64,000 nt of DNA. Source: Aphanomyces cochlioides (lineage: Eukaryota > Oomycota > Saprolegniomycetes > Saprolegniales > Verrucalvaceae). The position numbers were made by a program, and so were the translations under genes. The stretch spans positions 62,001 through 126,000 of the forward strand of contig JAHQRK010000018.1 in NCBI GenBank assembly GCA_019828595.1, in the 5' to 3' direction. Numbering within the stretch: the stretch's first letter is position 1; each line of letters begins with the position of its first letter. The notes beneath the pieces were generated by a model that searched no databases, was not told the origin of the DNA, and was given only the letters and a program-made list of their open reading frames with translations. Positions 24,701 through 61,454 of the stretch are shown piece after piece.

Positions 24701-27700
24701 ATGAGCACAACTCAGTTCTCGTACTCGTCGGCTCGTTTGCGCAGGGTGGAATACCTCCAATTCGGTGTTTTCTCCCCTGATGAAGTGCGTCAAATGAGTG
24801 TGACGAAGCAGATCAAGGTGAATGATCGCATCATTCCAGACGGGATCACGCGTCCTGAAACGTTTATCAATGGCCAACCTGTGATCGGCGGGATTGGGGA
24901 CCCCCGTATGGGAACTTGCGACTTTCGAGCTCGCTGTAAAACATGCGACTGCACATACAGTGGAAGCGGCGCCAAAGTAAACGACTGTCCTGGCCATTTT
25001 GGCCACATTGAACTTGCTCGACCCATGTTCCACGTCGGTTTTATCAAAGTATGCAAGCAAATCCTGAGCTGCATTTGTTTCCACTGTTCGAAAGTTCTTA
25101 GCGACGATCGCGATCATCGTTTCCGTGCCGCTATGCGCCAAAAGAACGGTCAGCGACGATTGAAAATGGTGTATGAAATCTGCAAGAACAAGAGCATGTG
25201 TGAGTACGGTGAAGAAGCAGACATGGAGAAAATGCGTGAAGACTTGAACATTGGTTTGCAGGGTGGTCTTTCAAATGAAAATGCTCCGAAAGAAGGTGGT
25301 CATGGAGGTTGCGGTAAGCTGCAGCCCAAGTACCGTCAAGTTGGCATCAGCTTGCAAGTCGAATTTCCCGAATCAATGGAAGATGTTCCAGGCTCTGGTG
25401 ATCGTAAACAAAATCTGCCCGCGAACAAAGTCTTGTCTATTTTCAAGAACATCAGTGACGCAGACTGTATTGCTCTGGGATTCAATCCTCGTTGGGCTCG
25501 TCCAGATTGGCTTATTCTTACGTTAATTCCAGTTCCCCCGCCTCACGTTCGACCATCCGTGGCTATTGATGGAGCGGCTCGCGGGGAAGATGACTTGACG
25601 CACAATTTGGCATCTATTGTAAAGGCTAACTTGGCATTGTTGAATTGCGTCAAGAAAGGCGAACCATCACATATCATTTCTCAATTCGAGCAGCTGCTCC
25701 AGTTCAACTTGAGTACGTTCGTTAACAATGAGCAACCTGGTCTCCCGCAAGCTCAACAGAAGAGTGGGAAACCGCTGAAGACCATGCGACAGAGATTGCG
25801 CGGCAAAGAAGGTCGTATACGTGGTAATCTGATGGGTAAACGTGTCGATTTTTCCGCACGTACGGTCATCACTGCCGATCCTAACTTAGCCGTCGATCAA
25901 GTCGGTGTTCCTCGGAGTATCGCAATGAATTTGACTGTTCCCGAACGAGTTACACCTTTCAATATGGCACTGATGCACGAGTTAATTAGCAGAGGCCCAC
26001 TTGAGCATCCTGGTGCCAAATACATCATTCGCGAAGACGGAAATCGCATTGACTTGCGGTATATCAAGAGCAAGTCCGACCTGGCCTTGAAATGTGGCTG
26101 GATTGTTGAGCGTCATTTACGTGATGATGACTATGTGCTCTTCAATCGACAGCCGAGTTTGCACAAAATGAGTATCATGGCTCATCGCGTCAAAGTCTTG
26201 GATTGGTCAACTTTCCGACTGAATATTTCTGTCACACTTCCTTACAATGCCGATTTTGATGGGGATGAAATGAATCTTCACGTTCCTCAATCGATGACCG
26301 CTCGTGCTGAAGCTCAAGAATTGATGATAGTGCACAAGAATATCATTACACCTCAGCGAAATGCTCCTGTGTTGGGTATTGTGCAAGACAGTTTGTTGGG
26401 TGTTCAAAAATTCACAAAGCGTAACATTTTCATCGAGAAAGATTTGATGATGAACATGTTGATGTGGGTATATACATGGGATGGGAAAGTGCCGACTCCT
26501 GCCATTTTGCTTCCAGATAAGACTCAGGTACAGCAATATTTCTGGCTAGTTTTGATTGTCATTCATGTAGGCCGGAAAATATCGACCAATATGGACTGGC
26601 AAGCAAATCATGTCGACCATCATGCCAAATATCAACTTCGTGGGCTATTGCTCGACTCACGAAAAAGATCCAAATAAAAAGGATTGCGACGAGCCTTTCC
26701 GCCGTAAAATGAGCCCTCGTGATACCCATGTCATCGTTCAAAATGGTGAACTTTTGGCGGGTATTATTGATAAGAAGACAATTGGTGCTGGTGCAGGCGG
26801 TTTGATTCACAATACTGTCCTGGAACTTGGAAATGATGAGGCAAAGCGGTTCTTGGGTTAGTGAAACCGGTTTTTGAGCATGCTAAAATGCATTTTTAGG
26901 TGCAACTCAATACTTGGTAAACTGTTGGTTGGTATGGCACAGTTTTACAGTCGGTATTTCTGACACTATTGCCGACGTAAAAACTCTCAAGAGTATCGTC
27001 GACATTATTACGAACGCAAAAATCCAAGTGCAAGATTTGGTTGTCACTGGTCAAAAAGGCAAATTGGAGCTTCAGCCTGGACGTACCATGATTCAAACTT
27101 TTGAACAATTCGTTAACAAAGTCCTCAACTCTGCACGTGATCAGTCGGGTCGTGAGGCCCAAGTACGATGATCCCAAACAATTCCATTGACAACTCATTT
27201 TAGGGCAGTTTGGATGAGACGAATAACATTAAAGCTACTGTGACATCTGGTTCGAAGGGTTCGTACCTAAACATTTCTCAAATTATTGCTTGTGTCGGTC
27301 AACAAAACGTCGAAGGCAAACGTATTCCTTACGGTTTTCACCACCGAACACTGCCGCATTATGGTAAAGATGACTTGGGCCCCGAATCCCGAGGTTTCGT
27401 GGAAAACTCGTACATGAAGGGTTTGACGCCACAAGAGTTCTTCTTTCATGCTATGGGTGGTCGTGAAGGTCTTATCGATACTGCCGTCAAAACGGCAGAA
27501 ACTGGGTAGGCATCGCACTCACTTGGCCAATCTGACATGGGTGTTCTATGTAGGTACATTCAACGTCGTTTGGTGAAGGCCATGGAAAGTGTAATGGCTC
27601 GTTATGATGGCACTGTTCGTAACAGCAACGGAGAAATTATTCAATTTCTTTATGGTGAAGATGGCATGGATGCAGTGTGGGTTGAAAAACAAAACTTTGA

Positions 27701-30535
27701 TGGACACACGTTGAACCGTGCTAAATTTGAAGCCAAATTCAAGATAGACCCGTACGACGATGCCTTGGGTACTGTGCCTCACTGCCCTGATGAGTTGTAC
27801 ATGGATCCTCAAATTATTCAAGATATTCAAACTAATCCAGTCACACAACAGTTGCTCCGCGAAGAATATTTACAACTGCAAAAAGATCGCTTGAATTTGC
27901 GTGTCATTTTGGCATCTCGAGGTCAAGGTCAAGAAAGTGACCATGCAGCGCAAGTTCCTGTCAATGTCAAGCGATTGATTCAAAATGCGCAACAACTATT
28001 TTCGATTTCTTTGCTGCACCCAACGACATTGCATCCAGAGCATGTGATCAATGGAGTGCGAGAGTTATGTGGTGATATTATTGTGGTCAAAGGTGATGAT
28101 CACTTGTCCGTGGAAGCCCAAGAAAACGCAACTTTACTGTTTCAGATTTTGTTGCGTTCAACACTGGCAGTGAAGCGAGTGCTTCTGGAGTACCGTTTGA
28201 ATAACTCCGCTTTCGAATGGTATGTGAATTGTTTTCCAGTGTAAACATGAATCGTTTTGTAGGCTTCTTGGTGAAATCAAGTCGAAGTTCTTGGCCTCTC
28301 TTGTCTCGGCAGGTGAAATGGCAGGCGTCGTGGCAGCACAAAGTATTGGTGAACCGGCTACCCAGATGACTTTGAATACTTTTCACTATGCTGGTGTGTC
28401 TGCTAAGAACGTAACCCTTGGTGTGCCGCGTCTGAAAGAAATTATCAATATCGCTAAAGATGTGAAGACGCCGTCGATCCAAATTTATTTGACGCCAGAT
28501 TGTGCTCATGACGCTGAGCGTGCTAAAAACATTCAGTCGATGTTGGAGTACACAACTTTGATGGACGTCACGGCTAATACAGCGATTTACTACGACCCTG
28601 ATCCAACCTCGACAGTTGTTGAAGAAGACGTGGATTTTGTTGCCAGCTACTATGATGTCATTGATGAAGATACGCCTTTGGCCCGCTCTCCATGGCTTTT
28701 GCGTATTGAATTGAATCGTAAGATGATGGCCGACAAGAATCTTGAAATGAAAGAAATTGCACTGCAAATTGAACACGAATATGGCCAAGACTTGAGCTGT
28801 ATTTACACGGATGATAACGCCGACAAGTTGGTACTCCGTATTCGTATCATGAGTGATGAAGAAGAGAAGTTACAACGATCGGGCGACGCTAGCGTTGGCC
28901 AAGAAGATGATACCTTCTTGAAACGAGTAGAACACAATATGCTTACCCAAATGCGCCTGCGAGGTGTGCCAAATGTGAAGAAGGTGTTCATGCGTGAGAA
29001 TCCCCAGAATCAATGGGATGAAGAAAAGGGTTTTGTGATGGTGAAAGAATGGGTGCTTGATACTGATGGTACCAACTTGTTGGATGTCATTTGTTTTGAC
29101 TCTGTCGATGCCACACGCACCATCAGTAACGATATTGTCGAAATTATTGAAGTTTTGGGAATTGAAGCGGTATTTCATTTCTTTCGCTGTGATCACCCCA
29201 CTATTTTTTTCTGAATAGGTTCGCCGCGCCTTGCTGAACGAAATTCGATCCGTCATTTCTTTCGATGGTGCGTACGTCAACTACCGTCACTTGGCATGTC
29301 TGGCTGATGTGATGACGTTCCGTGGACACTTGATGGCTGTGACTCGTCACGGTATCAATCGTGTTGACTCTGGTCCATTGGTTCGTTGCTCCTTTGAAGA
29401 GACTGTTGAAATTTTGATGGATGCCGCAATGTTCAGTCAAGGGGATGATTTGGCTGGTGTGACCGAGAATATTATGTTGGGTCAGCTGGCCCAATTGGGA
29501 ACTGGTGTCATGGATTTGATCTTGGATGCAAAGAAATTGAGTCAAGCTATCGAGTATGACGCGTCTGAAATTGAATCCGTTATGCGCGGGTTTGCCAAGG
29601 ACTACACAACCCCAGACGTCAACACACCCATGGCTACTCCATGGGGTCAAACCCCTTTGTATGGTACTCCTGCTCCTGGAACCCCTGGCTTTGGCACTCC
29701 TGGTGGCTCTCCGCTGATGAGCCCTTCAGGTTCGTTTTCTCCTTTTGTGTCCTTTTCACCACACAATGTGCCAACCTCTCCATATTCTCAAAGCCCTGGT
29801 TACGCTCAAAGTCCTGGCTTGAACCCAACCTCCCCAATTTATTCGCCAACATCTCCTGCGTATTCACCAACTTCCCCTGCCTACAGCCCCACATCGCCTG
29901 CATACAGTCCAACTTCTCCTGCGTATTCGCCAACTTCCCCAGCCTATTCACCAACTTCCCCGGCCTATTCGCCGACATCTCCGGCTTATTCACCAACGTC
30001 CCCAGCGTATTCACCTACGTCTCCAGCCTATAGCCCCACATCCCCTGCCTACTCGCCAACTTCCCCGGCGTACAGCCCAACCTCTCCAGCATACAGTCCT
30101 ACGTCACCGGCTTATTCACCGACGTCGCCAGCTTACTCACCGACGTCGCCTGCTTATAGCCCAACGTCTCCAGCTTATTCGCCAACATCCCCTGCCTACA
30201 GTCCAACGTCGCCGGCTTACTCCCCAACGTCGCCTGCGTATTCGCCTACCTCACCAGCCTACAGCCCCACGTCGCCCGCTTACTCTCCGACTTCCCCAGC
30301 GTACAGCCCAACATCGCCAGCATACTCCCCAACTTCCCCAGCGTATTCTCCTACATCCCCTGCATACAGCCCATCATCTCCGGCTTATTCTCCGACTTCG
30401 CCCGCTTATTCGCCCACTTCACCAGCCTATAGCCCATCTTCGCCAGCGTACAGCCCTGCGTCGCCCGAGTACAATCCATCTGAAGGCTCTTACAATGGCT
30501 CTGGAAGATATAGCCCAACAAGCGAAGATCGTTAA
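24701..30535 (+). CDS. RPB1: RNA polymerase II largest subunit RPB1
   Basis: Seven exons: 24701-26527, 26571-26856, 26900-27162, 27204-27505, 27554-28219, 28263-29169, 29219-30535. All joins keep frame and all introns are GT-AG and 41-49 nt long; the product is 1855 aa. It is the catalytic subunit of nuclear Pol II. Seen: the N-terminal zinc ligands (CKTCDC, then [10 protein letters not shown]), the active-site motif [10 protein letters not shown] at about residue 516, the trigger-loop region ([20 protein letters not shown]) and a C-terminal CTD with 30 heptads. The start was taken at ATG 24701 because upstream codons are not ATG and the MSTTQ start aligns with the copy at 46503. An inverted pseudogene copy lies at 41650-46503. 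Confidence 0.98.
29840..30469 (+). repeat. CTD-coding tandem repeat, 30 heptads
   Basis: Thirty 21-bp units encode heptads with consensus YSPTSPA. Position 7 is Ala in all but the last unit (YSPASPE), and a few units have Ser at position 4 (YSPSSPA). Codon use varies from unit to unit, so the peptide is conserved while the DNA is not, consistent with selection on the protein. Ser2 and Ser5 phosphorylation sites are retained; Ser7 is absent. Confidence 0.95.
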
Positions 30536-30970
30536 GCGCTCATGCGATTGCTTTGAATGTAACATTTATATGATGCTGAATAATTTGAATTTGTTTTTCT
30601 CTAATTCGAAATTGCAGGACCTCAAGTCCTTGCCACGTTTATGTTAAAGGCGCATTTCAACTTACAACAGCAATGTGCAGAATACAGGTAATTTAGATGA
30701 CAACGACGCAAGACAGGAGATGCTTCATTGTCTCGACGGGTGCAGCAAGAGTGTCGACATCCAGTCAACTGCACGACCAGAGGAGTAGGCTTTGGATTAT
30801 CTATGCATGTCGTCCGGCCGGGCGAGAAGGACGTGACAGCCAATTACAGACGGGTGATGAGCCAATCATGACCAAATGGAACATCCTGGTGAAGTGTTCG
30901 TAGCCTCAAGCATGGGCTAAAAAAACACTGTAACGCCTCTGCTCCAAATCGGATCGGCACGTGTGGAGAA
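30536..30970. other. RPB1-to-myosin intergenic region
   Basis: 435 bp with the RPB1 3-prime end and the myosin 5-prime region. I see no further gene. Confidence 0.6.
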
Positions 30971-33900
30971 ATGCAGCGTGAACGAGCCACGTCGGCAGCT
31001 AGTACACTTGTGTGGGTTCCTCATGAAAAAGAAGTATGGAAGAAAGCGCAAATGGTCCAAAAGCTGTCCGAATTCGAAGTGGAAGTTCGCCTTGTGTCAG
31101 ACAGTGACGAATACGATCCCGAGGAAGGTGTCGTTAAGGTCTACGATGTTCGCGAAATAGCCAAGTTGGCCGGCGAAGTGTCTGCGACGGCCATGCCAAT
31201 CTGCAATACATTCAACAAACATGGCGTGGCAGACATGTGCACGCTGAACCACTTGCACGAACCTGCTGTCCTGAAGAACCTGCAACTTCGACATGCATTG
31301 TGCATGCCATACACATACACAGGCCAAATTTGTATTGCGGTGAATCCTTACATGTGGCTTGATCTATATCGCCAGGTAGAGCTTGTGGTTGCAGTGTCGT
31401 TATAAAGACTTGTAGGACTTGTACGAGAAGTACTTGGAATTACCGAGATCGGATCTACCTCCGCATCCCTTTGCATTGTCATCGAGCGCTTACATTGACA
31501 TGCAAGAACACGGGATTGAGCAGAGTATTTTAGTCAGTGGTGAATCTGGAGCAGGGAAGACAGAGACTGTCAAGATCATGATGAACCACCTGGCTTCAGT
31601 GTCTGGCGGTGGTGACAGCGGATCCCTCGTCATTGAACAAGTATTAAAATCCAATCCTCTTCTTGAAGCCTTTGGCAATGCCAAGACGAAACGCAATGAC
31701 AACAGTAGTCGATTTGGTAAATTTGCTCAATTGCAATTCAACAACGAAGGCTTGCTTGTCGGTGCGCGTTGCGAAACATATTTGCTCGAGAAGAGTCGTG
31801 TTGTGGGTCAAACCTTGGGCGAACGCAACTATCACATATTTTATCAAGTATTTTCACTGCCGCATGAAGTGAAGAAGACTTTGTTTTTGGATGGATCCGT
31901 CGGTGACTATTCTTATGTCCGTGTTGGTGAAGGGTCTAAAGTCGACAATGTGGACGATTCCGAATATCTACAAGAAACGAAGGATGCCATGGACACAATT
32001 GGAATTGACTACCGCGAACAACAGGGTATTTTCGAAGTCGTGAGTTCCATTTTGAACTTGGGCCAAGTTGAATTCAAGGCAGAATCCAGCGAAAAAAGCT
32101 CTGTGTTATCTGTGGATCGTCTCGAGTCAATTTCAAAATTGCTTCAAGTTGATTCTACTGTTCTAGCGTCAATTTTGACTAATCGCACGATGGCTGCACG
32201 TGGCGAGACTTTTACCATTCCTCTCAATGCCGATCAAGCCGCAGATTTGCGCGATGCATTTGCCAAAGGAATCTATTCACAGCTCTTTGACTGGCTGGTT
32301 ACTCGTGTGAACAATGCGATTTGCAGCACCAGGTCCGTGAAACACCACATTGGTCTTTTGGATATCTTTGGCTTTGAATCATTTGATCACAATGGATTTG
32401 AACAATTGTGCATCAACTATGCCAACGAAAAGTTACAGCAAAAGTTTAACAGCGACATTTTCAAAACAGTTCAGACTGAATACATTCAAGAAGGCATTCC
32501 TCTCGAACTTGTCTCGTTTGAAGACAATCAACCGATTCTGGACTTAGTGGAAGGCCGCATGGGATTGATTGATTTACTCAACGAAACTGGTGTTTTGGCC
32601 AAAGCAACTGACGCTGCCTTTGTGAGTAAAATCCATGAAGCATTTAGCTCACACAAAAACTATGAAAAAGTGCGCGTCAATGCCATGCAATTCAAAATCC
32701 TTCACTACGCTGGCGAAGTAACGTACAATGGTGAGCAATTCCTTGAGAAAAACAAAGACACACTGCCGCCTGAAATTCTCGAGCTCTTGTCGTCGAGTAA
32801 ATCTTCATTTATCCGCGATGTCTTTCCAGAAGCGTCCAAGGACAAGAATAAACCTGGACGTCGCCAAGGATTCTTGGTTGGTGCAACGATTGCTAATTCT
32901 TTCCGAAGACAATTGGGTGAACTCATGGAACAAATTGCCAAGACCACGACACAATATGTGCGATGCATAAAACCTAACTCCAACAAGAGTCCCAAGGAGT
33001 TTGACCGCCAAATGGTCGTAGATCAACTACGATGCGCTGGTGTCATTGCTGCCATCCGCATCAGTCGCGCTGCTTTTCCCAATCGCTTGACACTTGCTGA
33101 ATTTGCTCGCCGCTTTGACATCATTTGTCCATCAAAGTTGCGAAAAGCGGCACCCGAGGCCATGGTGCTCGGACTCTTAGAAAAACTGGGTATCACGGAG
33201 TCGTCATCACAAAATGCCAAGTTTGCCATCGGTAAAACTAAAGTGTACTTCAGCTCGGGGCTCCTGCAATACTTGGAAGAACAACGAACTGTCGTTTTGC
33301 GCAAACAAGCAATTCTTATTCAAAAGAACATGCGCGCGTTTGCCAAGAGAAAGCAATTCAAGGCCATCCAAGCTGCAACAGTTGTTGTCCAACGGTGTAC
33401 TCGAGGGTGGATGGCTCGAAGGCGTTGGATGATTGTATGCCGCGGTATGCCCAAACTGCAAGCTGCAATCCGCGGCTACATCCAACGCGGGAAATATCGT
33501 GTGTTGGTGCAAGCGAGTCGCGAAGAAAAGCGCCTTCGTATCTTAGCTGAGGCCCAGGCCAATGCACAATCCGCTGCAGAGCTGCAACAGAAATTGCAGC
33601 AAGAAATATTGCCTCCAAGATCGTCGTTGACAGTTGGCAGTCCATACTTTAATGGCGAGATTCCAGAGAGTCCCAAACGAGCTGCGCCTCCTATGACCCA
33701 AAAAATGAAAGATGACTTGGTGCACAAGCTGGACGAAGCCCAAGCCATGGCTGAGCAGGCTCGCCAAGCTGCAAAAGAAGCCATGCAACTAAATGCTGCC
33801 CTGCAAGTTGAAAACGAACAACTCAAGGCTAAGTTGGCTAAAAATGCACGCGATTATGCCGATGAAGACCTGCGTGTCGAAAATGAGCGCTTGCGATCCC

Positions 33901-34534
33901 AATTGGCAGCTCTGCAGAGTAAAATCATTCGAGCGGATGAGGTCGCATTGATTTCTGCTAAGGTAAACTGGAGTTTTAGAGTGCATATTTTCAATCCTCT
34001 CGTAGGTTGTCGACAGTCGAATCACGTATCGCGATGGCAAACAATTTGTCGAGTATAAGTTGCAAATCGAGACGAACAACCGAGGCACACTCTTTGTGTG
34101 GCATCGGTACAGCACATTCCGCAATTTGGCGTCAACGCTGCAGACGAAAAATGGATATGCCCGAAAAGGAATTCCCGAACTGCCCAACAAAACTCTATTT
34201 GGAAACTTCTCGGACAAGATTGTCCAAGAGCGCATTGAAAAGCTTAATGCATTCTTGGAAGCAGCCACAAATGCTGATTATTTGCAATGGGGCATTCGTA
34301 TCGATGCGGATACGTGTGTGTACAAGCGCCGTATAAAGAACAGCACGTCTCGGTACGTTGAAATACTCGATGTTGATCGTGATTTAATGTTTCCGCAGGG
34401 AATCCATGGCCATGCGAGATACGATGACAACCATGACATCCAGCGTGCACTCGCCCACCGCGTCGGACTCGTCGACAACACCGCCAGAGTCATCCTTTCG
34501 AAGATCGTTCTTCTCGCGATCAAAGCGAAATTAG
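30971..34534 (+). CDS. Unconventional myosin with IQ motifs, coiled coil and C-terminal PX domain
   Basis: Four exons: 30971-31375, 31416-33962, 34006-34352, 34399-34534; the product is 1144 aa. Motor domain: P-loop [10 protein letters not shown] at about residue 177, switch [11 protein letters not shown], switch [22 protein letters not shown], and YVRCIKPN near the actin-binding end. Then three IQ-like repeats ([48 protein letters not shown]) for light chains, and a coiled coil ([20 protein letters not shown]). After the third exon begins there is a PX domain ([20 protein letters not shown], then [13 protein letters not shown]), which binds phosphoinositides. A Ser-rich tail ends SFFSRSKRN. 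This layout is that of the stramenopile class usually called myosin XXX (from memory). It probably moves PI3P-type membranes. The last intron (34353-34398) was chosen because it gives a compact tail in frame. Confidence 0.93.
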
Positions 34535-35294
34535 ACACAGCTTTTCTTGTCTGTATAATACGACATACTTTGACGACGATATCGTTGCTACTTTCTAATT
34601 ACGATGAGCATTGGTTGATTGACGTAAGTTTATGCTCGCCGCAAGCTTTCAACGTGTTTTGTCGCCGCCGGCAATGGTATTGCGGGATGTGCCGGAGGCA
34701 GTTCCATGCGCAAAAATCGAGGGGCAAGAATGAGGAATTCTTAGTGAGCTCAGCTGCTTTGATGAGTGGAAGGGCGACAGCCTAGAGGTAAGCGATCGAT
34801 GTGAGTTTATAATCTTGACATCCTCGAGGTTGTAGCACTCAATTCCTGTCGTTGGTTTCAATGATTGGTTTCTATTTATAGGATCGAGACAGCGCATTTT
34901 TGTGGCGAAACCGTCGCTCGACTCAGTCGAATCGCACGCGACCACCTTCCATCTTGCTCCACAATCGACATGGAAATCACCCCGCGAGACAACCCATCGA
35001 CCGGCGGCATGGTTGTGTCGATCATAAACTCTTCTCTGCCGTCCAAGTCACAGCACGAAATCGATATCATTGATTCGTTTCCACCGGCTTTCGAAGATCC
35101 ATTCCATCTCGAGATCAGCCCATCCGCGCTGGAGCCGACAGTGGAAATCGGCAGTGCAAAGTCCAAGTCGAGAGGCAACAGTCCAATTGAAATGAAGCGA
35201 CCGCCGCCAGCTACTGACACGATGCCTCAAACGCTGGTTGTCGCCGAGCCAGGCTCTCCAGCAGACAAGGCCATCGATATTACGAACCAACTAG
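34535..35294. other. Region between myosin and PIP kinase, with a possible upstream exon
   Basis: An open reading from ATG 34970 to 35323 (MEITPRDNPSTGGMVV, then DSFPPAFEDPFHLEISPSAL) is preceded by a splice-acceptor-like tttatag at about 34881. It is acidic and Pro-rich and might be an N-terminal extension of the PIP kinase. It is in a different frame and no obvious intron of normal size links the two, so I keep it separate. Confidence 0.4.
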
Positions 35295-36957
35295 ATGGCA
35301 AGAACAAGTCTGCTATTCGCTGAGGAGAGGCGACCTGACAGGAACTATGGTAGGGTGCGGCATTCCTCCAAGTCTGCTGTCAAAAAGCCGGATGGAAATG
35401 AGATCAACGACGAGCACGCACAGTACACGTTGACCTTTGGCATGATGACGGGCATTCTCAACTCGGTATCAAAACTAGTCGTCGTGTCGAGCTTATCGAT
35501 GAAAATCTAGGCCGGAAGCGTCAACATTTTCAAGCAAAAGCTCACCATGAACGACTTCATGCGCGTGGACAAACGAGAGTTTCCAGCAAATCCACGCTCG
35601 AAACTTCAGCATTCTTTCAAATTCAAGGTAGACACGATGATTTTCAAGGCCAGGAACTCGAAATTTGCTTGTTGTAGGATTACTCGCCTGACATCTTTCG
35701 GCAAATTCGACGGCGCTTTGACATCGACAGCGTACGTTCGACTGAATGCATTCCTTCTTGATCATCATCATCGCAGGCTGACTACATGGTGACCCTCTGT
35801 GGAGATTTCAATTACATTGAGTTCATGTCAAATTCGAAATCGGGTCAATTCTTTTTCTACTCCCACGACGGTCGATTCATGATCAAGACACAAACGCAGG
35901 ACGAATCCAAGTTTCTCCGACGCATTCTGCCGCATTATTACAAGGTACACTCTGCCTACAACATCGCGTTTACTTGGTGGATAGTTTGTCATGGAAAACC
36001 CAAATACACTCGTGACACGATTCTATGGCATGCATCGCGTCAAGATGCATCACATCAAGAAACAAATGCACTTCGTCATCATGGCCAGTGTCTTCAACAC
36101 GCCCAAGGAAATCCACCTCCGCTTCGATCTCAAGGGTTCCAAGGTCGGCCGAAACGCAACGCCGCAGGAAAAGAGCAAAAATGGTGTTTTGAAAGACAAC
36201 GACCTCATCGAAGAACACATTCATCTCTCACTTGGTCCTGAAAAGCGCGCTATGATGCTGGAACAACTGCGCAAGGTACTACAAATGAAGCTTAGCTCTG
36301 AGCTGATTTACCAGGACGTGGCATTCCTCAAGCGAATGAAGATTATGGATTATAGCCTCTTGATCGGCATCCACGACTCCAAGCAAGAAATTATCGCCCC
36401 CATGCCGTACGTGCTAGTTGCAAATGGTTCAGTCCTTGAAAGTTAGCTCGTAGACGTCCCAGTGCTGTTTTGGATGCCCGCGCAAAGGAACTAAAACTCC
36501 AACAATATCTTCAAACGCATGTATCCGACACGAGCGAGGATAATTCAGATGACGAAATTGAGCTTACCGACGCTCAATTGTACACTGCCATACAAATGAC
36601 AGCGTCTCAACTATGATCTAGATCTCCTCGTACGCTGGAATCGACGACAAAAACGCCGTCGGGCGGATCCATCTTTTGCAAAGATTATGGCGGCATTTGC
36701 GGCCGGAGTGCTACGAAAAAGAAGAATGGCAAGATTTATTTCGTCGGTACGATTACCATCTTGATGTGAGAAGCCATTCGTGACTTGGTGTTGCAGGCAT
36801 CATCGACATCCTCCAGCAATACAATACGCGCAAGATCACCGAGACTGTCATCAAAGGCTTTGTTCACAACAAGAAGGACATTTCGTCAGTCCCGCCCGAT
36901 CAATACGGCGATCGCTTTCTCGACTTCATCGAGAAGTTTGTTCTCGTCGACGAGTAA
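35295..36957 (+). CDS. Phosphatidylinositol phosphate kinase (PIPK)
   Basis: Nine exons: 35295-35465, 35511-35627, 35678-35731, 35777-35944, 35985-36275, 36315-36406, 36454-36579, 36622-36746, 36797-36957. All frames join, introns are 39-50 nt, and the product is 434 aa from ATG 35295. PIPK signatures: DYSPDIFRQIRRRF, SGQFFFYSHDGRFMIKTQTQ, NPNTLVTRFYGMHRVKM, FDLKGSKVGR (catalytic-site Lys/Asp region), KIMDYSLLIGIHD, and IIDILQQYNTRK near the end. It phosphorylates PIP to PIP2-type lipids at membranes. The 39-nt intron 36276-36314 could be read through in frame, but splicing restores the family pattern LRKDVAFLKRMKIMDYSLL. The N-terminus is uncertain (see 34535-35294). Confidence 0.92.
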
Positions 36958-37892
36958 ATCCGTGCTACATGAACACTGACCTTGCCAAGTCGGAATTGTT
37001 GACGTCATGGAGACGAAATGCGACAACAGCTCTGGCGATTCCCTCCATCGCATTGTATATCACACGCGAGCCTCATTCGTTGGAGCTCTAGAGTCTTCTC
37101 TCCGCGTGGGGTAATTTTCATTCCCCGCCTTCAATGCGATGGTTGAAAGGTTTCTCCAGTGCAGACGCTTGCCTACGGTTGTGAGTGCATTGAAACGATC
37201 GCATATCTCTGTCTCGGATTGCATTTCCCCTGACGTTGCCGTCAAGTAGCATTGCTTGCTTCAGGAGAGCAAAGTCTTGATCAATCGTTCATCATGTCGC
37301 TTTCGTGCGCAACCACTGGGTGGGGCGAATAGTCGTCTTGTTCTTGGTGCATCTCTCAGTTCTCCCCTGTCATGCAGTGATTGCCGGTACAGCTTGGCCT
37401 GCACAGATACTGGAAGGACTTCCTCTCTAACCCTCTGACTGAACGTTTCTCTCGAGCCCCCGAGGAGAACACACGAAGGAGATTGTTTGGGACAACGTTG
37501 CTTAAAGTGTTCTGTTCGGCAGTTCGTCGTTGCAACGGAGTACACCTCAGTTTCAAACGTCAAGCTAATGAATGTGCAACGCAGAACCGAGATGTCATGA
37601 ATCATGCTAATGAGTACGCCATGCAGTAAACTTCGTGAAGCAAAGCTCCAAGCAATACATTGCGAGTGTAGTACGCATGTACATCTCATGACACGGTCCA
37701 GATAGGCATGCGAAGCACTCGGTGGTCAACTCGGTCCTTCATTGCGGCCCAAAGTTTTGGATCGAGTGAGCTTTATGGCGACACTTCAGCAGCGACATGA
37801 AGTAGGCGCGAAGTGTCACGCGTGGATTACCAGCGTGGTCGTCCAACGTAGCCAGAATGAGATAGCGTTGATAACAAGAGCTGCAGTGTATT
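36958..37892. other. Intergenic stretch, no gene recognised
   Basis: Several overlapping ORFs exist (longest 37261-37689, minus, 142 aa, Arg/Ser/Cys-rich), but none has family signatures or a convincing start and intron structure. Confidence 0.4.
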
Positions 37893-38319
37893 TCAATGGC
37901 CTTGGTTGGAGAGGACGATATATATCGCGTTCGTCGAGTCTTGCGACAATAGTCGAGTATTGACTCGGGATAGATGCATCCGATCTCGACCGACCAAGCT
38001 TCCTGCATGAATCTGTGGGTACTTCATGCATTCCTCCAGCCCTACATTCGTTTCTCCGGCGCAATTCCATGCCATTGCGGTATGGCACACTACCGTATCT
38101 CCATGTGTTTTTGCGACAGCTCTCTATGGGATATTCGTAAAAAACGGGTCGGCCTATGAAAAATTTCCTAGAAAAAGTACATCTTGAGCTCACATCTTTG
38201 AGCAGCGATTCCAGTCGCCGTTCTTCTTCTCGACGTCCGACGTGGTGATATGTACGCTCTCTACTCTGTTTGCTTAGATGCTTGTCATCCAAGATGCGCG
38301 CCTTGCTTGGAGTTAGCAT
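37893..38319 (-). CDS. Small hypothetical protein, 118 aa, two exons
   Basis: Exon 1 is 38319-38194 (starts MLTPSKARILDDKHLSKQSR, ends ESLLKD). A 70-nt GT-AG intron follows. Exon 2 is 38123-37893 (RAVAKTHGDTVVCHTAMAWN, then EECMKYPQIHAGSLVGRDRM, stop). The join is in phase 0. The second exon has Cys residues spaced C-x7-C-x9-C, but I do not recognise a family. It is convergent with PIPK and divergent from the secreted-protein gene at 38876. Confidence 0.45.
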
Positions 38320-38875
38320 AAGGTCTGCGTCGACACAGTACTGTACTAGTACTGTTTTAAGGATATTGATGACAGTCGAGATATTACTAATATCGAAACA
38401 CCGGGTATTTGCGATTCAAATACCCACTTGGCAAGCTTTGATAGTGCGTTTTTGCCTCGTTCAATGTTTGTATCTGTCCGTCCGTCGGGTGTTTCAGGCT
38501 GCTTTGACTCTACAAAAAACGTTGCAGCGGGCGGGGCCCTTCCGCCATTGAATTGACATCCCTTGTCCATCTCAATCCACCAAACGCGAACACGCAGAGC
38601 CGTGCAACGCTTCCTTTTCCGAAGTACCAGCAAGAGGCACCGAACAATCAATTGTTCGAGTCGTTCGGAATCCGGTTTTACCGTACAATGTACATCATCC
38701 TAAGTACAATATTGATGGCATTGATACTCTCAAAACAACCTGTGTATGTACGTCTATTGATTGTACGTACGACCCAGTAGGGAAAAGTGTGTGTATTGCT
38801 TGTGAGTAATTCGTTCTTGTCGCTTGCGACAACGACGGCCATTTCGACTTCGTCCTCACAGACCACACACTAGCG
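38320..38875. promoter_or_regulatory. Intergenic region upstream of the secreted-protein gene
   Basis: No gene recognised. The sequence gccatttcgacttcgtcc at about 38838 resembles an oomycete initiator about 40 bp before the start codon at 38876. Confidence 0.3.
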
Positions 38876-40195
38876 ATGGTCCGTACTCTCTCCCTGCTGC
38901 TTGGTGCGTCCCTTGTGGCCGCCCAAACAACTACCGCACCAACGTACACCCCGCCTCCAACCCCAGTGGCATGGACAATGAAGACCATCACAACTGTGCA
39001 GGCCCGTGTGCAATCGTCTGCCCCTGTGTGGGACTCGACACAAAACGCGTGGGTCGCCAACTTTCCTAGCTTGAAGAATGACCCGACCGATAAGTGGGCT
39101 GCTTCTTTGGACACTGTCAACACAGCCAGTGTTGAAGGCTCCTTGTTTTACGTCCAAACGGAAGGTATTGGCAAAGATGTGGACAATGCATGCTCGCGCA
39201 AGACCAACATGTCATACATTTGGTTTTATTCAATCAAGATTGTCCAGCCGTATTTTGCCGTCGCTCAATACGGATCTGACACTGGCAAAGTGCCTGAATA
39301 TGGTGCGTTTGTTGCCATGGACAATGGCATGTGCACCCTACAAGGCCAACAAGTTCCAGCGGAATGCCAGCAGTTCACGGGTCTTAACTACAACCCTAAG
39401 TTGGGCCCATATGTAGGTGGTGAATACCGCAAGACGCATCCCCGTGCCAACTACTCGAACAATGTCTGGTTTTCTTTCCCTGGCTCTTGCTTCCTCAAGG
39501 CGTTTGGTGCCAAGACTGCTCAATGTCTCGCTGACCCATCTCTCCAAGGTGGCTTGTGCCCCAAGGGTACTGAACCTGATGGTGTGAAGTGCACTTTCAC
39601 CTTCGAAGTGTTGGGATTCCTCAGTATTGACGACTTGGTTGGCATTACCAACCAAACGAATCCAAACACCGGCAAGCCTTTCACCGGACGCGTTGAATTT
39701 TGCAAAGCCGGTTTGACTGAATTCGATTTTGATACCAACAAATCCGACTTGACGTCTGGATTCTGGAACGATCCTTTGAACTCGACTGCGAATGACATCC
39801 GTACCCAGAAGATGATGACCATGTACTCGACCCTAGTTGCTAGTGGCCAAGCCAAAAACATGAAGGATTTCCCTAACGTAACCTCTTTGGTTGCAACGAA
39901 CCCTCCTTGCTACAAGAACAACATCTTGTGCTCCCAGAGTCAATACGGCTGCCGACGCAAGTTGCTTGCCCAAGTTTGTGAAGTGTGCACGTCTGCTGCT
40001 CCTGACTGCATCAAGAAGCCTGACTCTGAAGCTCCATTCCCAACCCTTGTCAAGCAATTCGTCCCCCCAAAGCCGACCGACGCCTCAGGCAAGACTCTTG
40101 CCCCATCGTCTCCTGGAACTGCTCCTTCTGGATCGGCGAGTGTTGCCTCAGTTGCCATCTCCGCTTTGGCTGTCTTGGCCTTGGCACTATTCTAA
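38876..40195 (+). CDS. Secreted, probably GPI-anchored surface protein
   Basis: 439 aa, no intron. It has a signal peptide (MVRTLSLLLGASLVAA, cleavage near AQ), then a Thr/Pro linker (TTTAPTYTPPPTP). The globular part has many Cys and several N-glycosylation sequons (NMS, NYS, NQT, NKS, NST, NVT), with a distinctive block GGLCPKGTEPDGVKCTFTFE. It ends in a Pro/Ser/Thr stalk and a hydrophobic C-terminus (ASVAISALAVLALALF) after a small-residue site (SGSAS), as in GPI-anchored proteins. Codon use is clean and an aataaa lies 25 bp after the stop. The family is unknown to me; a cell-surface or adhesion role is inference. Confidence 0.85.
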   Translation: MVRTLSLLLGASLVAAQTTTAPTYTPPPTPVAWTMKTITTVQARVQSSAPVWDSTQNAWVANFPSLKNDPTDKWAASLDTVNTASVEGSLFYVQTEGIGKDVDNACSRKTNMSYIWFYSIKIVQPYFAVAQYGSDTGKVPEYGAFVAMDNGMCTLQGQQVPAECQQFTGLNYNPKLGPYVGGEYRKTHPRANYSNNVWFSFPGSCFLKAFGAKTAQCLADPSLQGGLCPKGTEPDGVKCTFTFEVLGFLSIDDLVGITNQTNPNTGKPFTGRVEFCKAGLTEFDFDTNKSDLTSGFWNDPLNSTANDIRTQKMMTMYSTLVASGQAKNMKDFPNVTSLVATNPPCYKNNILCSQSQYGCRRKLLAQVCEVCTSAAPDCIKKPDSEAPFPTLVKQFVPPKPTDASGKTLAPSSPGTAPSGSASVASVAISALAVLALALF

Positions 40196-40483
40196 GTCCA
40201 CGAGCAGATAACGATGTGCAATAAATTCATTCTTAACACTGCAACAACTTTTGTTCTTACATCAATAAATTATTTATTTTGCAATGTATTTTTGGATAAT
40301 GCTTACTGATGACAAATGAAATTCAATTTATCTCTTTGATTGGCCAGGATAGATACAATGTGGAACAATCTGCATACTAAACTTCAGTTTCAAAGTGTAC
40401 ACCATCCCATTGTCTCGGACAATAAATTATTTATTAAAAGTCCTGGTTGCCTGAAGTTCATACTAGTACTTGCCACCAAAATA

Positions 40484-40935
40484 TGTCAACGGAAGATGTC
40501 CTGGCAGATGCAGCCGCCGAAGAGAACGAGCTTGACCCTGAAGAGCTAGAAATAGCAGCGTGGATTAAACAAATGCAGGAAAAAGAAGTGTCCAGACTGC
40601 AGCGAACTGGTGCTAAAGCCATCCCGCTCAAAGTGAAAAATATGGCGATTGTTCGCGAAACCTCAGACGTTGTGCTGAACCGCGTTGAAGTCGACACGAA
40701 TTTCTCGATGGACAAGATCAGCCAAATTCTAGTCGCTGAAGAGACGACTCCAGTACCTAAGAAGCCGCAGTACGTTTACGTTAATGTGCTCTTGCTCCCA
40801 GCAGCGTCAAATCCCACCGCACCTGTTGCTCTCGTCATGCCGTACGTGTATGATGCCCACGTTATAGGCAATTCACTGACACAGTGGGTCTTTATCAACA
40901 ATAAAATGGAACGGTCACATCATGTGATTACATAA
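40484..40935 (+). CDS. Small acidic hypothetical protein
   Basis: The reading from ATG 40484 is strongly acidic at first (DAAAEENELDPEELEIAAWI), followed by MQEKEVSRLQRTGAKAIPLK and VVLNRVEVDTNFSMDKI. From 40770 on, candidate introns (gtacgtttac..., gtacgtgtat...) make the 3-prime half uncertain: read straight it is 150 aa, and spliced versions differ. No family recognised. Confidence 0.5.
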
Positions 40936-41640
40936 TTCTCACGCTTCTTTTTCTTAGTGCTTTTTGTCATCATTTTCTCTTTAAACTTGTTGGTCCTTAT
41001 TGCACAACATGACATCACATACCTACTGCTTACTCCATACGGCTTGTCACTTCAAAGATAGCCTGGTATTACATGAACACTGCCGTCACTATCCAAAGCG
41101 TGTAATACATGATGCCAATCATGCCGTGGTTAAGTCACACAAAATCGTGGAACAAATAGGTTGAGTTTCAAAAACCTCGTAATTCGTGAGCTGGAATCCC
41201 TCGTTGTTATGGTAGAGGACTAGACCGCAGTTTTGTATTCATTGCATTCAACACTTCCTCAAGGTAATTATTGTTTGGTGACGTCAGTTCAGGAACAAAA
41301 AGCAATTGACTAGATATCACATGCAACCTTTGATGTAACTTTCGAAACCTAAGCCGAACCAACATTAATTTGACTTATAAAAACGGGACTGCAGCCCGTA
41401 TTTCATATTTGCCGAGTCATCACCAGCCATAATCGATGTGAGTCATTGGGTCGAGGTTAACATCTTTTTCCTCGTGCAATCTTTTGCACAAAATGCTTCG
41501 ATAACCGCAGCATCAGATTTCGTACTTGGATGCATCAATTCATGGATTTCCCCTCAAGTTTCGATCGTAGTCCTCAAGTTACAAAAGGAATGTCGACATC
41601 AAGGGTATGGGCCTTATTTTCCGTCGTTCCCTGTAATCTA
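40936..41640. other. Intergenic stretch, nothing recognised
   Basis: AT-rich, stop-rich DNA between the small acidic gene and the 3-prime end of the RPB1 pseudogene. No gene or repeat identified. Confidence 0.45.
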
Positions 41641-41649
41641 GACCAACTC

Positions 41650-44600
41650 AACATTACAAGAATTGCATTGAACAGCATGGCTCAATTTCCTTGCATCCTA
41701 GATCAAATCCATGACACCGGTACCCAATTGGGCCAGCTGACCCAACATAATGTTTTCAGTCACACCAGCCAAATCATCTCCTCGACTGAACATTACGCAT
41801 CCATCAAAATTTCAACAGTCTCTTCAAAGGAGCAACGAACCAATGGACCAGAGTCAACACGATTGATACCGTGACGAGTCACAGCCATCAAGTGTCCACG
41901 GAACGTCATCACATCAGCCAGACATGCCAAGTGACGGTAGTTGACATACGCACCATCGAAAGAAATGACGGATCGAATTTCGTTCAGCAAGGCGCGGCGA
42001 ACCTATTCAGAAATATTAGTGGGGTGATCACAGCGAAAGACAAGACATACCGCTTCAATTCCCAAAACTTCAAGAATTTCGACAATATCGTTACTGATGG
42101 TGCTTTGGCATCGACAGAGTCAAAACAAATGACATCCAACAAGTTGGTACCATCAGTATCAAGCACCCATTCTTTCACCATCACAAAACCCTTTTCTTCA
42201 TCCCATTGATTCTGGGGATTCTCATGCATGAACACTTTCTTCAAATTCGACACACCACGGAGACGCATTTGGGTAAGCATATTGTGCTCAACATGTTTCA
42301 AGAAAGACAAACTCTCGTCGATAATAGCATCGACTGATTCCTGCGACTTCTCTTCTTCATCACTCATGATACGAATACGGAGTACCAACTTGTCGGCGTT
42401 ATCATCCGTGTAAATACAGCTCAAGTCTTGGGCTTATTCGTGTTCAATTTGCAGTGCAATTTCTTTCATTTCAAGATTTTTGTCGGACATCATCTTGTGA
42501 TCCAATTCAACACGCAATAGCCAAGGAGAGCGAGGTAAAGGTGTATCTTCATCCACGATTTCGTAATAACTGGCAATAAAATCCTCATCTACTTCGACAA
42601 TCGTTGAGGTAGGATCAGGGTCGAAATAGATTGCTTTACTGCCAGTGACGTCCTTGAAGCTTGTATACACCAGCATAGTCTGAATTGCTTTAGCATGCCC
42701 AGCATCATGAGAACAATCTGGCATCAAATAAATTTTCATTGAAGGCGTCTTCAGATCTCTCGTAACATCCATGATTTCTTTGAGACGAGGATTTCTTGTT
42801 GTCAAGCATCTTGCTGATATACCAGCATAACCGAACACACTCAATATTTGTGGTGGATATCTTTCTACCATGCTTTGTGCTGCAATGACTACAACCATTT
42901 CACCTGCCGGGACAAGAGAGGCCAAGAACTTCGACTTGATTTCACCAAGAAGCCTACAAAACGATTCATGTTTACACTGGAAAACAATTCACATACCATT
43001 CGAAAGCGGAGTTATTCAAACGGTACTCCAGAAGCACTCGCTTCACTGCCAGTGTTGAACGCAACAAAATCTGAAACAGTAAAGTTGCGTTTTCTTGGGC
43101 TTCCACGGACAAGTGATCATCACCTTTGACCACAATAATATCACCACATAACTCTCGCACTCCATTGATCACATGCTCTGGATGCAATGTCGTTGGGTGC
43201 AGCAAAGAAATCGAAAATAGTTGTTGCGCATTTTGAATCAATCGCTTGACATTGACAGGAACTTGCGCTGCATGGTCACTTTCTTGACCTTGACCTCGAG
43301 ATGCCAAAATGACACGCAAATTCAAGCGATCTTTTTGCAGTTGTAAATATTCTTCGCGGAGCAACTGTTGTGTGACTGGATTAGTTTGAATATCTTGAAT
43401 AATTTGAGGATCCATGTACAACTCATCAGGGCAGTGAGGCACAGTACCCAAGGCATCGTCGTACGGGTCTATCTTGAATTTGGCTTCAAATTTAGCACGG
43501 TTCAACGTGTGTCCATCAAAGTTTTGTTTTTCAACCCACACTGCATCCATGCCATCTTCACCATAAAGAAATTGAATAATTTCTCCGTTGCTGTTACGAA
43601 CAGTGCCATCATAACGAGCCATTACACTTTCCATGGCCTTCACCAAACGACGTTGAATGTACCTACATAGAACACCCATGTCAGATTGACCAAGTGAGTG
43701 CGATGCCTACCCAGTTTCTGCCGTTTTGACGGCAGTATCGATAAGACCTTCACGACCACCCATAGCATGAAAGAAGAACTCTTGTGGCGTCAAACCCTTC
43801 ATGTACGAGTTTTCCACGAAACCTCGGGATTCGGGGCCCAAGTCATCTTTACCATAATGCGGCAGTGTTCGGTGGTGAAAACCGTAAGGAATACGTTTGC
43901 CTTCGACGTTTTGTTGACCGACACAAGCAATAATTTGAGAAATGTTTAGGTACGAACCCTTCGAACCAGATGTCACAGTAGCTTTAATGTTATTCGTCTC
44001 ATCCAAACTGCCCTAAAATGAGTTGTCAATGGAATTGTTTGGGATCATCGTACTTGGGCCTCACGACCCGACTGATCACGTGCAGAGTTGAGGACTTTGT
44101 TAACGAATTGTTCAAAAGTTTGAATCATGGTACGTCCAGGCTGAAGCTCCAATTTGCCTTTTTGACCAGTGACAACCAAATCTTGCACTTGGATTTTTGC
44201 GTTCGTAATAATGTCGACGATACTCTTGAGAGTTTTTACGTCGGCAATAGTGTCAGAAATACCGACTGTAAAACTGTGCCATACCAACCAACAGTTTACC
44301 AAGTATTGAGTTGCACCTAAAAATGCATTTTAGCATGCTCAAAAACCGGTTTCACTAACCCAAGAACCGCTTTGCCTCATCATTTCCAAGTTCCAGGACA
44401 GTATTGTGAATCAAACCGCCTGCACCAGCACCAATTGTCTTCTTATCAATAATACCCGCCAAAAGTTCACCATTTTGAACGATGACATGGGTATCACGAG
44501 GGCTCATTTTACGGCGGAAGGCTCGTCGCAATCCTTTTTATTTGGATCTTTTTCGTGAGTCGAGCAATAGCCCACGAAGTTGATATTTGGCATGATGGTC

Positions 44601-46503
44601 GACATGATTTGCTTGCCAGTCCATATTGGTCGATATTTTCCGGCCTACATGAATGACAATCAAAACTAGCCAGAAATATTGCTGTACCTGAGTCTTATCT
44701 GGAAGCAAAATGGCAGGAGTCGGCACTTTCCCATCCCATGTATATACCCACATCAACATGTTCATCATCAAATCTTTCTCGATGAAAATGTTACGCTTTG
44801 TGAATTTTTGAACACCCAACAAACTGTCTTGCACAATACCCAACACAGGAGCATTTCGCTGAGGTGTAATGATATTCTTGTGCACTATCATCAATTCTTG
44901 AGCTTCAGCACGAGCGGTCATCGATTGAGGAACGTGAAGATTCATTTCATCCCCATCAAAATCGGCATTGTAAGGAAGTGTGACAGAAATATTCAGTCGG
45001 AAAGTTGACCAATCCAAGACTTTGACGCGATGAGCCATGATACTCATTTTGTGCAAACTCGGCTGTCGATTGAAGAGCACATAGTCATCATCACGTAAAT
45101 GACGCTCAACAATCCAGCCACATTTCAAGGCCAGGTCGGACTTGCTCTTGATATACCGCAAGTCAATGCGATTTCCGTCTTCGCGAATGATGTATTTGGC
45201 ACCAGGATGCTCAAGTGGGCCTCTGCTAATTAACTCGTGCATCAGTGCCATATTGAAAGGTGTAACTCGTTCGGGAACAGTCAAATTCATTGCGATACTC
45301 CGAGGAACACCGACTTGATCGACGGCTAAGTTAGGATCGGCAGTGATGACCGTACGTGCGGAAAAATCGACACGTTTACCCATCAGATTACCACGTATAC
45401 GACCTTCTTTGCCGCGCAATCTCTGTCGCATGGTCTTCAGCGGTTTCCCACTCTTCTGTTGAGCTTGCGGGAGACCAGGTTGCTCATTGTTAACGAACGT
45501 ACTCAAGTTGAACTGGAGCAGCTGCTCGAATTGAGAAATGATATGTGATGGTTCGCCTTTCTTGACGCAATTCAACAATGCCAAGTTAGCCTTTACAATA
45601 GATGCCAAATTGTGCGTCAAGTCATCTTCCCCCCGAGCCGCTCCATCAATAGCCACGGATGGTCGAACGTGAGGCGGGGGAACTGGAATTAACGTAAGAA
45701 TAAGCCAATCTGGACGAGCCCAACGAGGATTGAATCCCAGAGCAATACAGTCTGCGTCACTGATGTTCTTGAAAATAGACAAGACTTTGTTCGCGGGCAG
45801 ATTTTGTTTACGATCACCAGAGCCTGGAACATCTTCCATTGATTCGGGAAATTCGACTTGCAAGCTGATGCCAACTTGACGGTACTTGGGCTGCAGCTTA
45901 CCGCAACCTCCATGACCACCTTCTTTCGGAGCATTTTCATTTGAAAGACCACCCTGCAAACCAATGTTCAAGTCTTCACGCATTTTCTCCATGTCTGCTT
46001 CTTCACCGTACTCACACATGCTCTTGTTCTTGCAGATTTCATACACCATTTTCAATCGTCGCTGATCGTTCTTTTGGCGCATAGCTGCACGGAAACGATG
46101 ATCGCGATCGTCGCTAAGAACTTTCGAGCAGTGGAAACAAATGCAGCTCAGGATTTACTTGCATACTTTGATAAAACCGACGTGGAACATGGGTCGAGCA
46201 AGTTCAATGTGGCCAAAATGGCCAGGACAGTCGTTTACTTTGGCGCCGCTTCCACTGTATGTGCAGTCGCATGTTTTACAGCGAGCTCGAAAGTCGCAAG
46301 TTCCCATACGGGGGTCCCCAATCCCGCCGATCACAGGTTGGCCATTGATAAACGTTTCAGGACGCGTGATCCCGTCTGGAATGATGCGATCATTCACCTT
46401 GATCTGCTTCGTCACACTCATTTGACGCACTTCATCAGGGGAGAATACACCAAACTGAAGATAACTAGCTCTGCGCAATGGGGCAGATGAGCTCGAGAAG
46501 CTC
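41650..46503 (-). pseudogene. Inverted RPB1 pseudogene with introns retained
   Basis: Reverse-orientation copy of RPB1 from the start codon (46503) to about exon 7, just before the CTD. All intron positions are kept, so it is a DNA-level, not retro-, copy. From about 46445 down to about 42900 it is almost identical to 24771-28310. Both outer parts are clearly diverged: the first 20 codons (MSFSSSSAPLRRASYLQFGV against [20 protein letters not shown]), and everything left of 42900. Breaks: a nonsense TAA at 46155-46157 (Gln codon in the live gene), a 1-nt deletion near 44518, a stop at about 42434, and the trigger-loop motif ruined (VERYPPQILSVFGYAG). The CTD is absent. Confidence 0.95.
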
Positions 46504-46792
46504 ATGGTGGATCTTGTCATTGTCGTGGACGGTCTCGACGCCCGTCGACAAGCTTGTGAACTTCGTCTTCACCTGAGGAACACTACATGTATTTCTTGTA
46601 CGTATGCATAATCACAGTACCTGCCAATGTACATTTCCCCAAACATGGCGTATGCCCATGGCGAGGAATGCCTCATCTCACGGAACATGTAGAGCCCACA
46701 AGGCTCATAAATCATCATTTTTCCCCGATATAGAAGAAGACGAATCTCTGCCCAAATGGGGATGTGTGTCCAAGCTCAAGCATTGCCTCCAA

Positions 46793-47060
46793 TGTAGTGT
46801 AGTTGGTAAGGTCAGAGGAAGACGAGAAATGAGTTAGATTAGCCAGCTTAAAGTTAAATCTATAAACTAAACAATACCGTATAGTTTTCGGTATACACTC
46901 GGCACGGTTACGGAATAATCTTCTGAGGGCCGTACACTCCCTGAGAACACACGTGCCCCTGGCCAATCTCAACTTAGTCAGACGGTGTCGTCAGCGTTGG
47001 ACACGCTTGACTCGACACCCGTCTTGCCAGGCGACAACTATTAACCATTAATTCATTACA
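46793..47060 (-). repeat. 3-prime LTR of the chromovirus
   Basis: 268 bp, ends tgtagtgtag and attcattaca on the plus strand. The adjoining ttctccccccccg is the polypurine tract read on the other strand. Confidence 0.95.
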
Positions 47061-53354: not shown

Positions 53355-53707
53355 ACGACAATCGTTATGTCTTTGAATTATCAGTAGGATGCAATGTACG
53401 AACAGTTGATGAAAGATTAAAGCCAAGATTTGCGAGGAAAGTCATACATCTCGAGGGTTATTAACTTTCTTAATTAAGGTATTAAAAGCAATACTAGTAC
53501 TACCTCTGTTCTAAATTACTGCCAGCATTTGACTTCTCAGCGACTCCAAAACTTGATTTCTTGTCCAAAATAGGTGATTTATATCATATTTGAAAGAGTA
53601 GAAAAAAATAAAGAAAGTTTCTATTGGGGGCAGAACATAAAAAGCAACTCTTGGTCGTCATAATTGCCATCGTTTTTTCGATGTCAGAATAAAAATACAA
53701 AATAATA
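53355..53707. other. AT-rich spacer before BRO unit A
   Basis: No gene. It contains tactacctctgttctaaatt at about 53500, which resembles the mariner end tacttcctctgtttggcaat at 53706, so there may be a second degenerate element end here. Confidence 0.4.
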
Positions 53708-54073
53708 CTTCCTCTGTTTGGCAATATTTGCAGACAAAAATTCATTACTATACATAAATCAAATATGCAGAATCTGTATTTTAAAAAGATTACAACACAA
53801 CATCGGTCATGGCATCAAGTAAATCGCAAACCTCATCCAGCCTGCTTTCTTCCTCGAGTCGTAAGTGCTAAACTAAAAATTTTATGTAGTGATCCTACAT
53901 GCACAAAAAGATTTCAAATTATTTTCATCGAGTTTTCTCGTTTTTAGACTTGATTCGCAACCTTTGAGGAGTAAGGATTATTTTGACTAAATAATGAAAC
54001 ATTTCGTTCGTATTATTTTGAGAAAGCAATGTTCTTTTTGCAATTAATATGAATATTTTGACTCAAATCATTT

Positions 54074-54110
54074 ACTTCGTGGATGGCTCCTTTGGAGCCA
54101 TCCACGAAGT
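54074..54110. repeat. 17-bp hairpin, unit A
   Basis: acttcgtggatggctcc, three bases ttt, then its exact reverse complement. It lies just beyond the 3-prime end of the BRO gene. The unit B counterpart is 52 nt longer. Confidence 0.95.
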
Positions 54111-55307: not shown

Positions 55308-55690
55308 TGTGAGCTATAGGTTAGCCCTAGGGCCCAGCCTTAGGGATAACGAAACTCAATAGGGAAGGTTATCCATGTTAGGAAACATAGATGATCGTGT
55401 AAAGAGCCCATGGCTTATGGGTAACCGGCTGTGGATCGTCTAGTACGACCCTCAGCCCAATTCAATTGGCAAACGGCACACATCATAGAGATGATGCATG
55501 TCGTTGGCCAGCTTTAACTTGCTCTATGTATTTAATGAATGCATGGTTGTGAGGAGGCAACCGTAAAGACGGTTGCCACTACTAATTGGCTATGATATTA
55601 TGTGGGTCGTATAAGTTTACTTTCTAATCTACCCCGGTTGAGCCACCTTACTTGTGTATTCTTCTGCTTCCCCGCTGCTGTTGATTAACA
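55308..55690 (+). repeat. 5-prime LTR of the copia element
   Basis: Begins tgtgagctatagg (the partner LTR begins tgttagctatagg) and ends gctgttgattaaca. It lacks the 4-base actaac-type insertion of the right LTR. Confidence 0.95.
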
Positions 55691-61436: not shown

Positions 61437-61454
61437 GTTTGTATTATTTAGCCT

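Follow-up and report, generated by a model that had tools for sequence, protein, structure and literature searches.

Few proteins are as strongly conserved as RPB1, the largest subunit of RNA polymerase II. Trypanosomes carry second RPB1 gene copies, and both copies are functional there. The genome of Aphanomyces cochlioides likewise harbors two RPB1 genes, with the difference that one of them is dead and partly overwritten. A synonymous divergence (dS) of ∼1 lies beyond the distance at which conversion between two copies is usually considered possible.

Interlocus (ectopic) gene conversion between duplicated genes is described for paralogues of Drosophila and Caenorhabditis (PMC2588116, PMC3966223), and high identity is said to help the process (PMC3966223). 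The locus presented here resembles these cases in its sharp silent-site borders, the neighbouring position of its copies, and the copying toward the less constrained copy. It differs in three respects: partners at a dS of ∼1 still convert, the donor encodes the largest subunit of RNA polymerase II, and another border is seen in a relative's fragment. A second point of comparison is given by NRPD1 and NRPE1, the largest subunits of the plant RNA polymerases IV and V (PMC7714444). Among the open-licence publications listed, judged by title and the start of the abstract, none on this locus was found.

The window, i.e., the whole stretch of DNA that was analysed, comprises 64,000 nucleotides and contains a live RPB1 gene (A) and an inverted copy of it (B), which are separated by a spacer.

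24701..30535, plus strand: live RPB1 gene A, 7 exons, 6 introns, 1,855 amino acids, C-terminal heptad repeats
29549..41673, no strand: spacer of 12.1 kb that separates the homologous parts and contains the 3′ end of A itself, a myosin-head gene, and ORFs encoding PX and PIP5K domains
41674..46505, minus strand: inverted copy B, full extent alignable to A, from the start codon to just short of the C-terminal domain (CTD)

The exons of gene A were joined manually at GT-AG borders. All six introns are short, the terminal stop is the sole stop of the spliced gene, and the encoded protein displays the Pfam RPB1 domains together with the CTD repeat. The heptads of the CTD (29824-30465) form a highly regular YSPTSPA array. 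Compared with five A. euteiches proteins, the gene A protein differs in 2-4 residues over 1,431-1,447 aligned residues, with V633M and L1046M separating it from all five. Over residues 1130-1500, its identity is 100% to A. euteiches proteins and 92% to A. astaci.

In a self-BLAST, 24764-29548 aligns with 46451-41674 in inverted orientation at 96.3% identity over 4,792 columns. Copy B retains introns 1-6, which rules out a retrocopy or processed pseudogene. Homology to A fades in the last tract of B, and no CTD is found downstream in any of the three frames read. It is highly probable that B is an old inverted RPB1 paralogue that was long protein-coding with an altered trigger loop, and that interlocus gene conversion has replaced patches of it with A sequence, probably more than once.

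The mosaic is directly visible in the identity profile. In 50-bp windows, A and B are 96-100% identical from about 24806 to 28305, and the next eight windows drop to 52-84%. A two-state segmentation of the 4,848 aligned columns, which hold 216 differences, yields five diverged and four near-identical segments, the latter being a large tract and three islands of 133, 179, and 216 columns. The segments of B, all on the minus strand, are the following.

46446..46505 (A 24701-24769): old (unconverted) tract covering the start codon and the residues right after it, reading frame kept, 27 differences in 69 columns
42895..46445 (A 24770-28321): large converted tract, 8 differences in 3,552 columns, spanning introns 1-5, with a nonsense codon and a 1-base deletion
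42479..42894 (A 28322-28737): old tract, 120 differences in 416 columns, frame open, trigger loop changed in frame
42346..42478 (A 28738-28870): converted island, 2 differences in 133 columns, 0 synonymous differences in 23 sites, stop codon from one of two close changes
42225..42345 (A 28871-28994): old tract, 36 differences in 124 columns, one-codon deletion in common with the A. euteiches protein P0235
42047..42224 (A 28995-29173): converted island, 3 differences in 179 columns, 1-base gap at about A 29114
42014..42046 (A 29174-29207): short diverged stretch within intron 6, 6 differences in 34 columns
41798..42013 (A 29208-29423): converted island, 1 difference in 216 columns
41674..41798 (A 29424-29548): last diverged tract, 13 differences in 125 columns, with a frame gap and a stop

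The diverged tracts interspersed between the near-identical ones differ in 10-39% of their columns. Over the whole copy, the longest identical run measures 1,113 columns against a permutation mean of 129, and in 28306-29548 alone it measures 148 against 36; none of 5,000 permutations reaches the observed length in either comparison. Inside the large tract, the seven inner differences give no run-length signal (2,682 of 5,000 permutations reach the observed value). The original prediction of a sharply mosaic copy is borne out by profile, segmentation, and permutations, although the pattern is finer than first described. The large near-identical tract lies as it had been placed, with borders at 46445 and about 42895. 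Diverged tracts are indeed found at both ends, as had been proposed, but the claim that both ends are strongly diverged holds only in part: the old piece at the 5′ end spans just 69 columns, and at the 3′ end 528 of 1,227 columns lie in near-identical islands. A single overwriting of 3.5 kb is too simple, since B contains four converted tracts and a fragment from A. euteiches shows a different pattern.

The silent sites carry the main evidence. In 24772-28305, 3 synonymous differences are found in 726 sites (dS 0.004), and in the adjoining 28306-28737, 52.8 are found in 95.2 sites (dS ∼1.0). The islands are equally poor in silent change: the first has none in its 23 sites, the second none in 20 sites (A 29003-29113), and the third 1 in 49, compared with a pooled proportion of 0.58 in the three old tracts (P = 1.7e-9, 2.4e-8, and 1.5e-17, respectively). 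The low dS of the large tract agrees with the proposed recent date of the overwriting. RPB1 is so highly conserved a protein that a mosaic might arise by uneven selection, with some parts held constant and others free to change. This reading is given virtually no probability: in the converted tracts the silent sites and introns 1-5 are near-identical while the adjacent silent sites are strongly diverged, which excludes uneven constraint, and the normally near-invariant trigger loop is the most diverged part of B. Near-zero silent divergence inside the tracts, high divergence outside, sharp borders, and a donor in the same genome are all hallmarks of gene conversion that this locus shows.

Neither class of tracts appears to be of a single age. 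Differences from A are denser in the small islands (6 of 528 columns) than in the large tract (8 of 3552, P = 0.005), which points to more than one conversion event. Among the old sequence, third positions are more diverged in 28321-28434 (25 of 38) than in 28475-28737 (30 of 88, P = 0.0016). Within the large tract, four of the seven inner differences, the nonsense codon included, fall within 92 bp (25058-25149 versus 46157-46066, P = 0.002); this cluster could be a leftover patch or a cluster of mutations.

The identity profile would look the same if B were a recent duplicate of A into which the diverged patches had later been imported from a third, old RPB1-like locus, making it a composite of two duplications. 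Searches of the 76.2-Mb, 94-contig assembly at the DNA, Pfam, and protein level, in which the best candidates were scored, revealed no third RPB1 locus, and such a donor within the assembly was rejected on this basis. With PF00623 and the B tract as queries, A and B were recovered together with two further largest-subunit loci, which presumably encode those of RNA polymerases I and III. A third locus could still escape a 94-contig assembly or sit on an unassembled haplotype. The A. euteiches fragment P0235 likewise combines the old type with A-type patches, however, and five diverged segments, with B's start codon at one end, would be better explained as leftovers than as imports. A composite origin is therefore rated as improbable. 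The silent-site contrast and the search result together support the original prediction that A has overwritten B by gene conversion between the inverted copies.

The direction of copying was assessed with the RPB1 of A. astaci. Gene A matches it in 93/93, 289/317, 285/304, and 356/390 residues when the large tract is taken in four parts, and in 22/23, 135/143, and 39/44 residues in the three old tracts. As the match is even across the tracts, A does not look like a recipient, which suggests an unchanged donor and non-reciprocal conversion. The A. euteiches proteins P0001 and P0004 match A almost fully, with their coverage starting at residue 425 or 409.

P0235 is a partial protein of 183 residues (835-bp contig, six member sequences), and its frame is open over the entire length. 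At 41 sites that differ between A and B, it is A-type at 26, B-type at 13, and neither at 2; it differs from both copies at three further sites. Along the sequence the sites are ordered as three A-type, two B-type, 22 A-type, 11 B-type, and one A-type, with the neither-type sites inside the third and fourth blocks. None of 20,000 shuffles has as few as these four switches. The 11 B-type sites lie in 28876-28975 and include the codon deletion of B, and 19 sites of the 22-site A-type block lie in 28546-28729, where B in the window is old. Because P0235 carries private residues of B and its codon deletion, the old type would predate the split of the two lineages. The changed position of the A-type block in this one partial protein suggests that the A. 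euteiches copy contains a conversion tract with a different left border, and conversion was probably repeated. The right border of that tract, at about 28870, lies close to that of an island in B itself, and the two copies may have it in common. P0235 may be a chimeric contig, though joining would require shared sequence at the borders, and, given that A differs from the five A. euteiches proteins in only 2-4 residues, it may derive from another strain and not another species.

The old tracts reveal what B was before it was overwritten. The three of them hold 170 substitutions in 206 codons, distributed over the codon positions as 40/42/88, and their only gaps, of one codon and three codons, are in frame. 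No stop is present, while 6.0 are expected with random placement (P = 0.0016 and 0.0018 in two runs). The lack of stops and the in-frame gaps argue that B was coding for most of its divergence. The frame gap and stop of the last tract weaken this intactness: when 29424-29548 is added, 1 stop is found versus 6.7 expected over 247 codons (P = 0.007).

These figures bear on the description of B as an old pseudogene, which had been non-coding since soon after duplication and was overwritten later. B is dead now, lacks a CTD, has lost its trigger loop, and ends in a tract that carries a frame gap and a stop, all of which fit such a history. The absence of stops from the three old tracts, the third-position share of 88 in 170, the confinement of their gaps to the reading frame, the significant deficit even with the last tract included, and the open frame of P0235 over 183 residues all count against it. 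A pseudogene from early on has only a small chance of being correct, and this element of the original prediction is not upheld.

In a tree, RPB1 of Aphanomyces and Achlya forms the group into which the old tract of B falls; the fork has support of 90/98 and is unstarred, and with a branch as long as 1.04 the placement of B is unsure. An origin from a distant organism was rejected on this grouping. Pattern searches for relatives of the old tract gave 15 matches in viral_contigs and 63 in genome_contigs, 0 of which were confirmed.

The trigger loop is lost in B in a particular manner. For the comparison, 126 distinct RPB1 tracts were drawn from a collection of 233 proteins, of which many came from plants and fungi, and a position counted as near-invariant when its conservation among these tracts was 98% or higher. 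B has changed 17 of 33 such near-invariant positions in the first 45 residues of the old tract and 3 of 24 in the remainder (P = 0.004). Q1078, N1082, and H1085 (numbering of the yeast protein P0105) are replaced by P, S, and G. At codon positions 1 and 2, 15 of 30 differ in 28354-28398 versus 27 of 175 in 28475-28737 (P = 8e-5). Part of this contrast may stem from the greater silent divergence of the trigger-loop stretch, and the neighbouring stretch may itself have been partly overwritten long ago. Loss through paired frameshifts was rejected, as a frameshift-aware alignment places zero shifts at penalties of -15, -10, -6, and -4. The trigger-loop region had been called destroyed; the loop is indeed lost, but the loss took place in frame, and the frame is open.

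In this respect B can be compared to NRPD1 and NRPE1, which are likewise RPB1-derived paralogues with an altered or lost trigger loop and without the heptad-repeat tail (PMC7714444). B differs from them in that it is broken, by stops and frameshifts, and not an intact protein, and in that its catalytic domains are overwritten by A sequence. The metal A site (DFDGD) falls in the converted tract, so B's own earlier state is erased there. An altered trigger loop within an otherwise constrained sequence is thus a Pol IV/V-like feature of B, and an intact protein is absent; the similarity is a resemblance and not a claim of membership. For RNA polymerases I, II, and III, three RPB2-type loci are expected. 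A search of the genome that scored the best candidates found just three, which reveals no extra RPB2-type partner and argues against a wider polymerase duplication. It is conceivable, albeit unlikely, that Aphanomyces and perhaps other Saprolegniales formerly had a second RPB1-derived subunit with a dismantled trigger loop, which arose separately from Pol IV/V, was long under selection, and is at present disappearing under gene conversion from RPB1; A. euteiches might possess a copy that is still intact. A functional old copy would mean that evolution outside plants, too, has produced a polymerase subunit whose trigger loop is dismantled.

In its present state, B is interrupted by several stops and frameshifts. 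Two lesions lie in the large tract, namely the nonsense codon at A 25058 and the deletion of one base at A 26696. Further lesions are the island stop at 28780-28782, two gaps of one base each (about 29114 and about 29424), and another stop near 29523 (all in A coordinates). Both lesions that had been predicted for the converted part are present, but a gain of the nonsense codon after conversion is not required, as the 92-bp cluster that includes it could be a leftover. The three old tracts are free of lesions, which are found in the tracts copied recently and in the diverged tract at the end; from this placement we infer that the death of B coincided with or followed the conversions and did not precede them by long.

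The same lesions help to judge an assembly or polishing artefact, in which reads of A would have been merged into B. Such an artefact would be in line with the near-perfect 6.6-kb palindrome of the window, itself a possible long-read artefact. The 8 differences of the large tract, including a stop and a frameshift, show that it is no plain copy of A, islands of 133-216 columns beside sequence of ∼71% identity are hard to produce by read merging, and the A. euteiches fragment has a mosaic of its own. An artefact is accordingly considered very improbable.

For the preferred reading of B as a long-coding paralogue overwritten by A, we infer a repair-based mechanism, an order of conversion before death, and a selective account of the direction. 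B would most likely have originated within the Saprolegniales and would have stayed protein-coding through much of its divergence from A (synonymous divergence of ∼1). Breaks in B would most likely have been repaired off A, which lies 12 kb away in inverted orientation, and interrupted copying or patchy mismatch repair could account for the unconverted patches amid the copied ones. Copying in the reverse direction would harm A, an essential gene, so that such transfers would disappear and A-to-B patches alone would be seen. In this genome, B would then have died after conversion. The locus is a clear example of how an essential gene overwrites, probably repeatedly, an old paralogue at a dS of ∼1. 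It also warns that RPB1, which serves as a marker gene, can be accompanied by a mosaic second copy in these genomes.

Copy B is situated next to repetitive sequence, which begins at most about 50 bp upstream of its start codon.

46554..46794, minus strand: dispersed repeat, with more copies at 5233-5463 of the window and on another contig (C8)
46789..52877, minus strand: Ty3-type LTR element adjoining B beyond the dispersed repeat, LTR pair 97.4% identical

The 274-bp LTRs of the Ty3-type element differ at six internal places, which lie away from the ends and are all transitions. The inverted repeat at 8331-14932 (6.6 kb) has arms that differ at one place in the first 3,250 columns and a short asymmetric centre; it is either a palindrome of very recent origin or a hairpin artefact of long reads. 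Near-identical direct repeats (98-99.9%) around copia-like ORFs are found at 53704-55690 and 60359-62857 and may represent nested or rearranged LTR elements.
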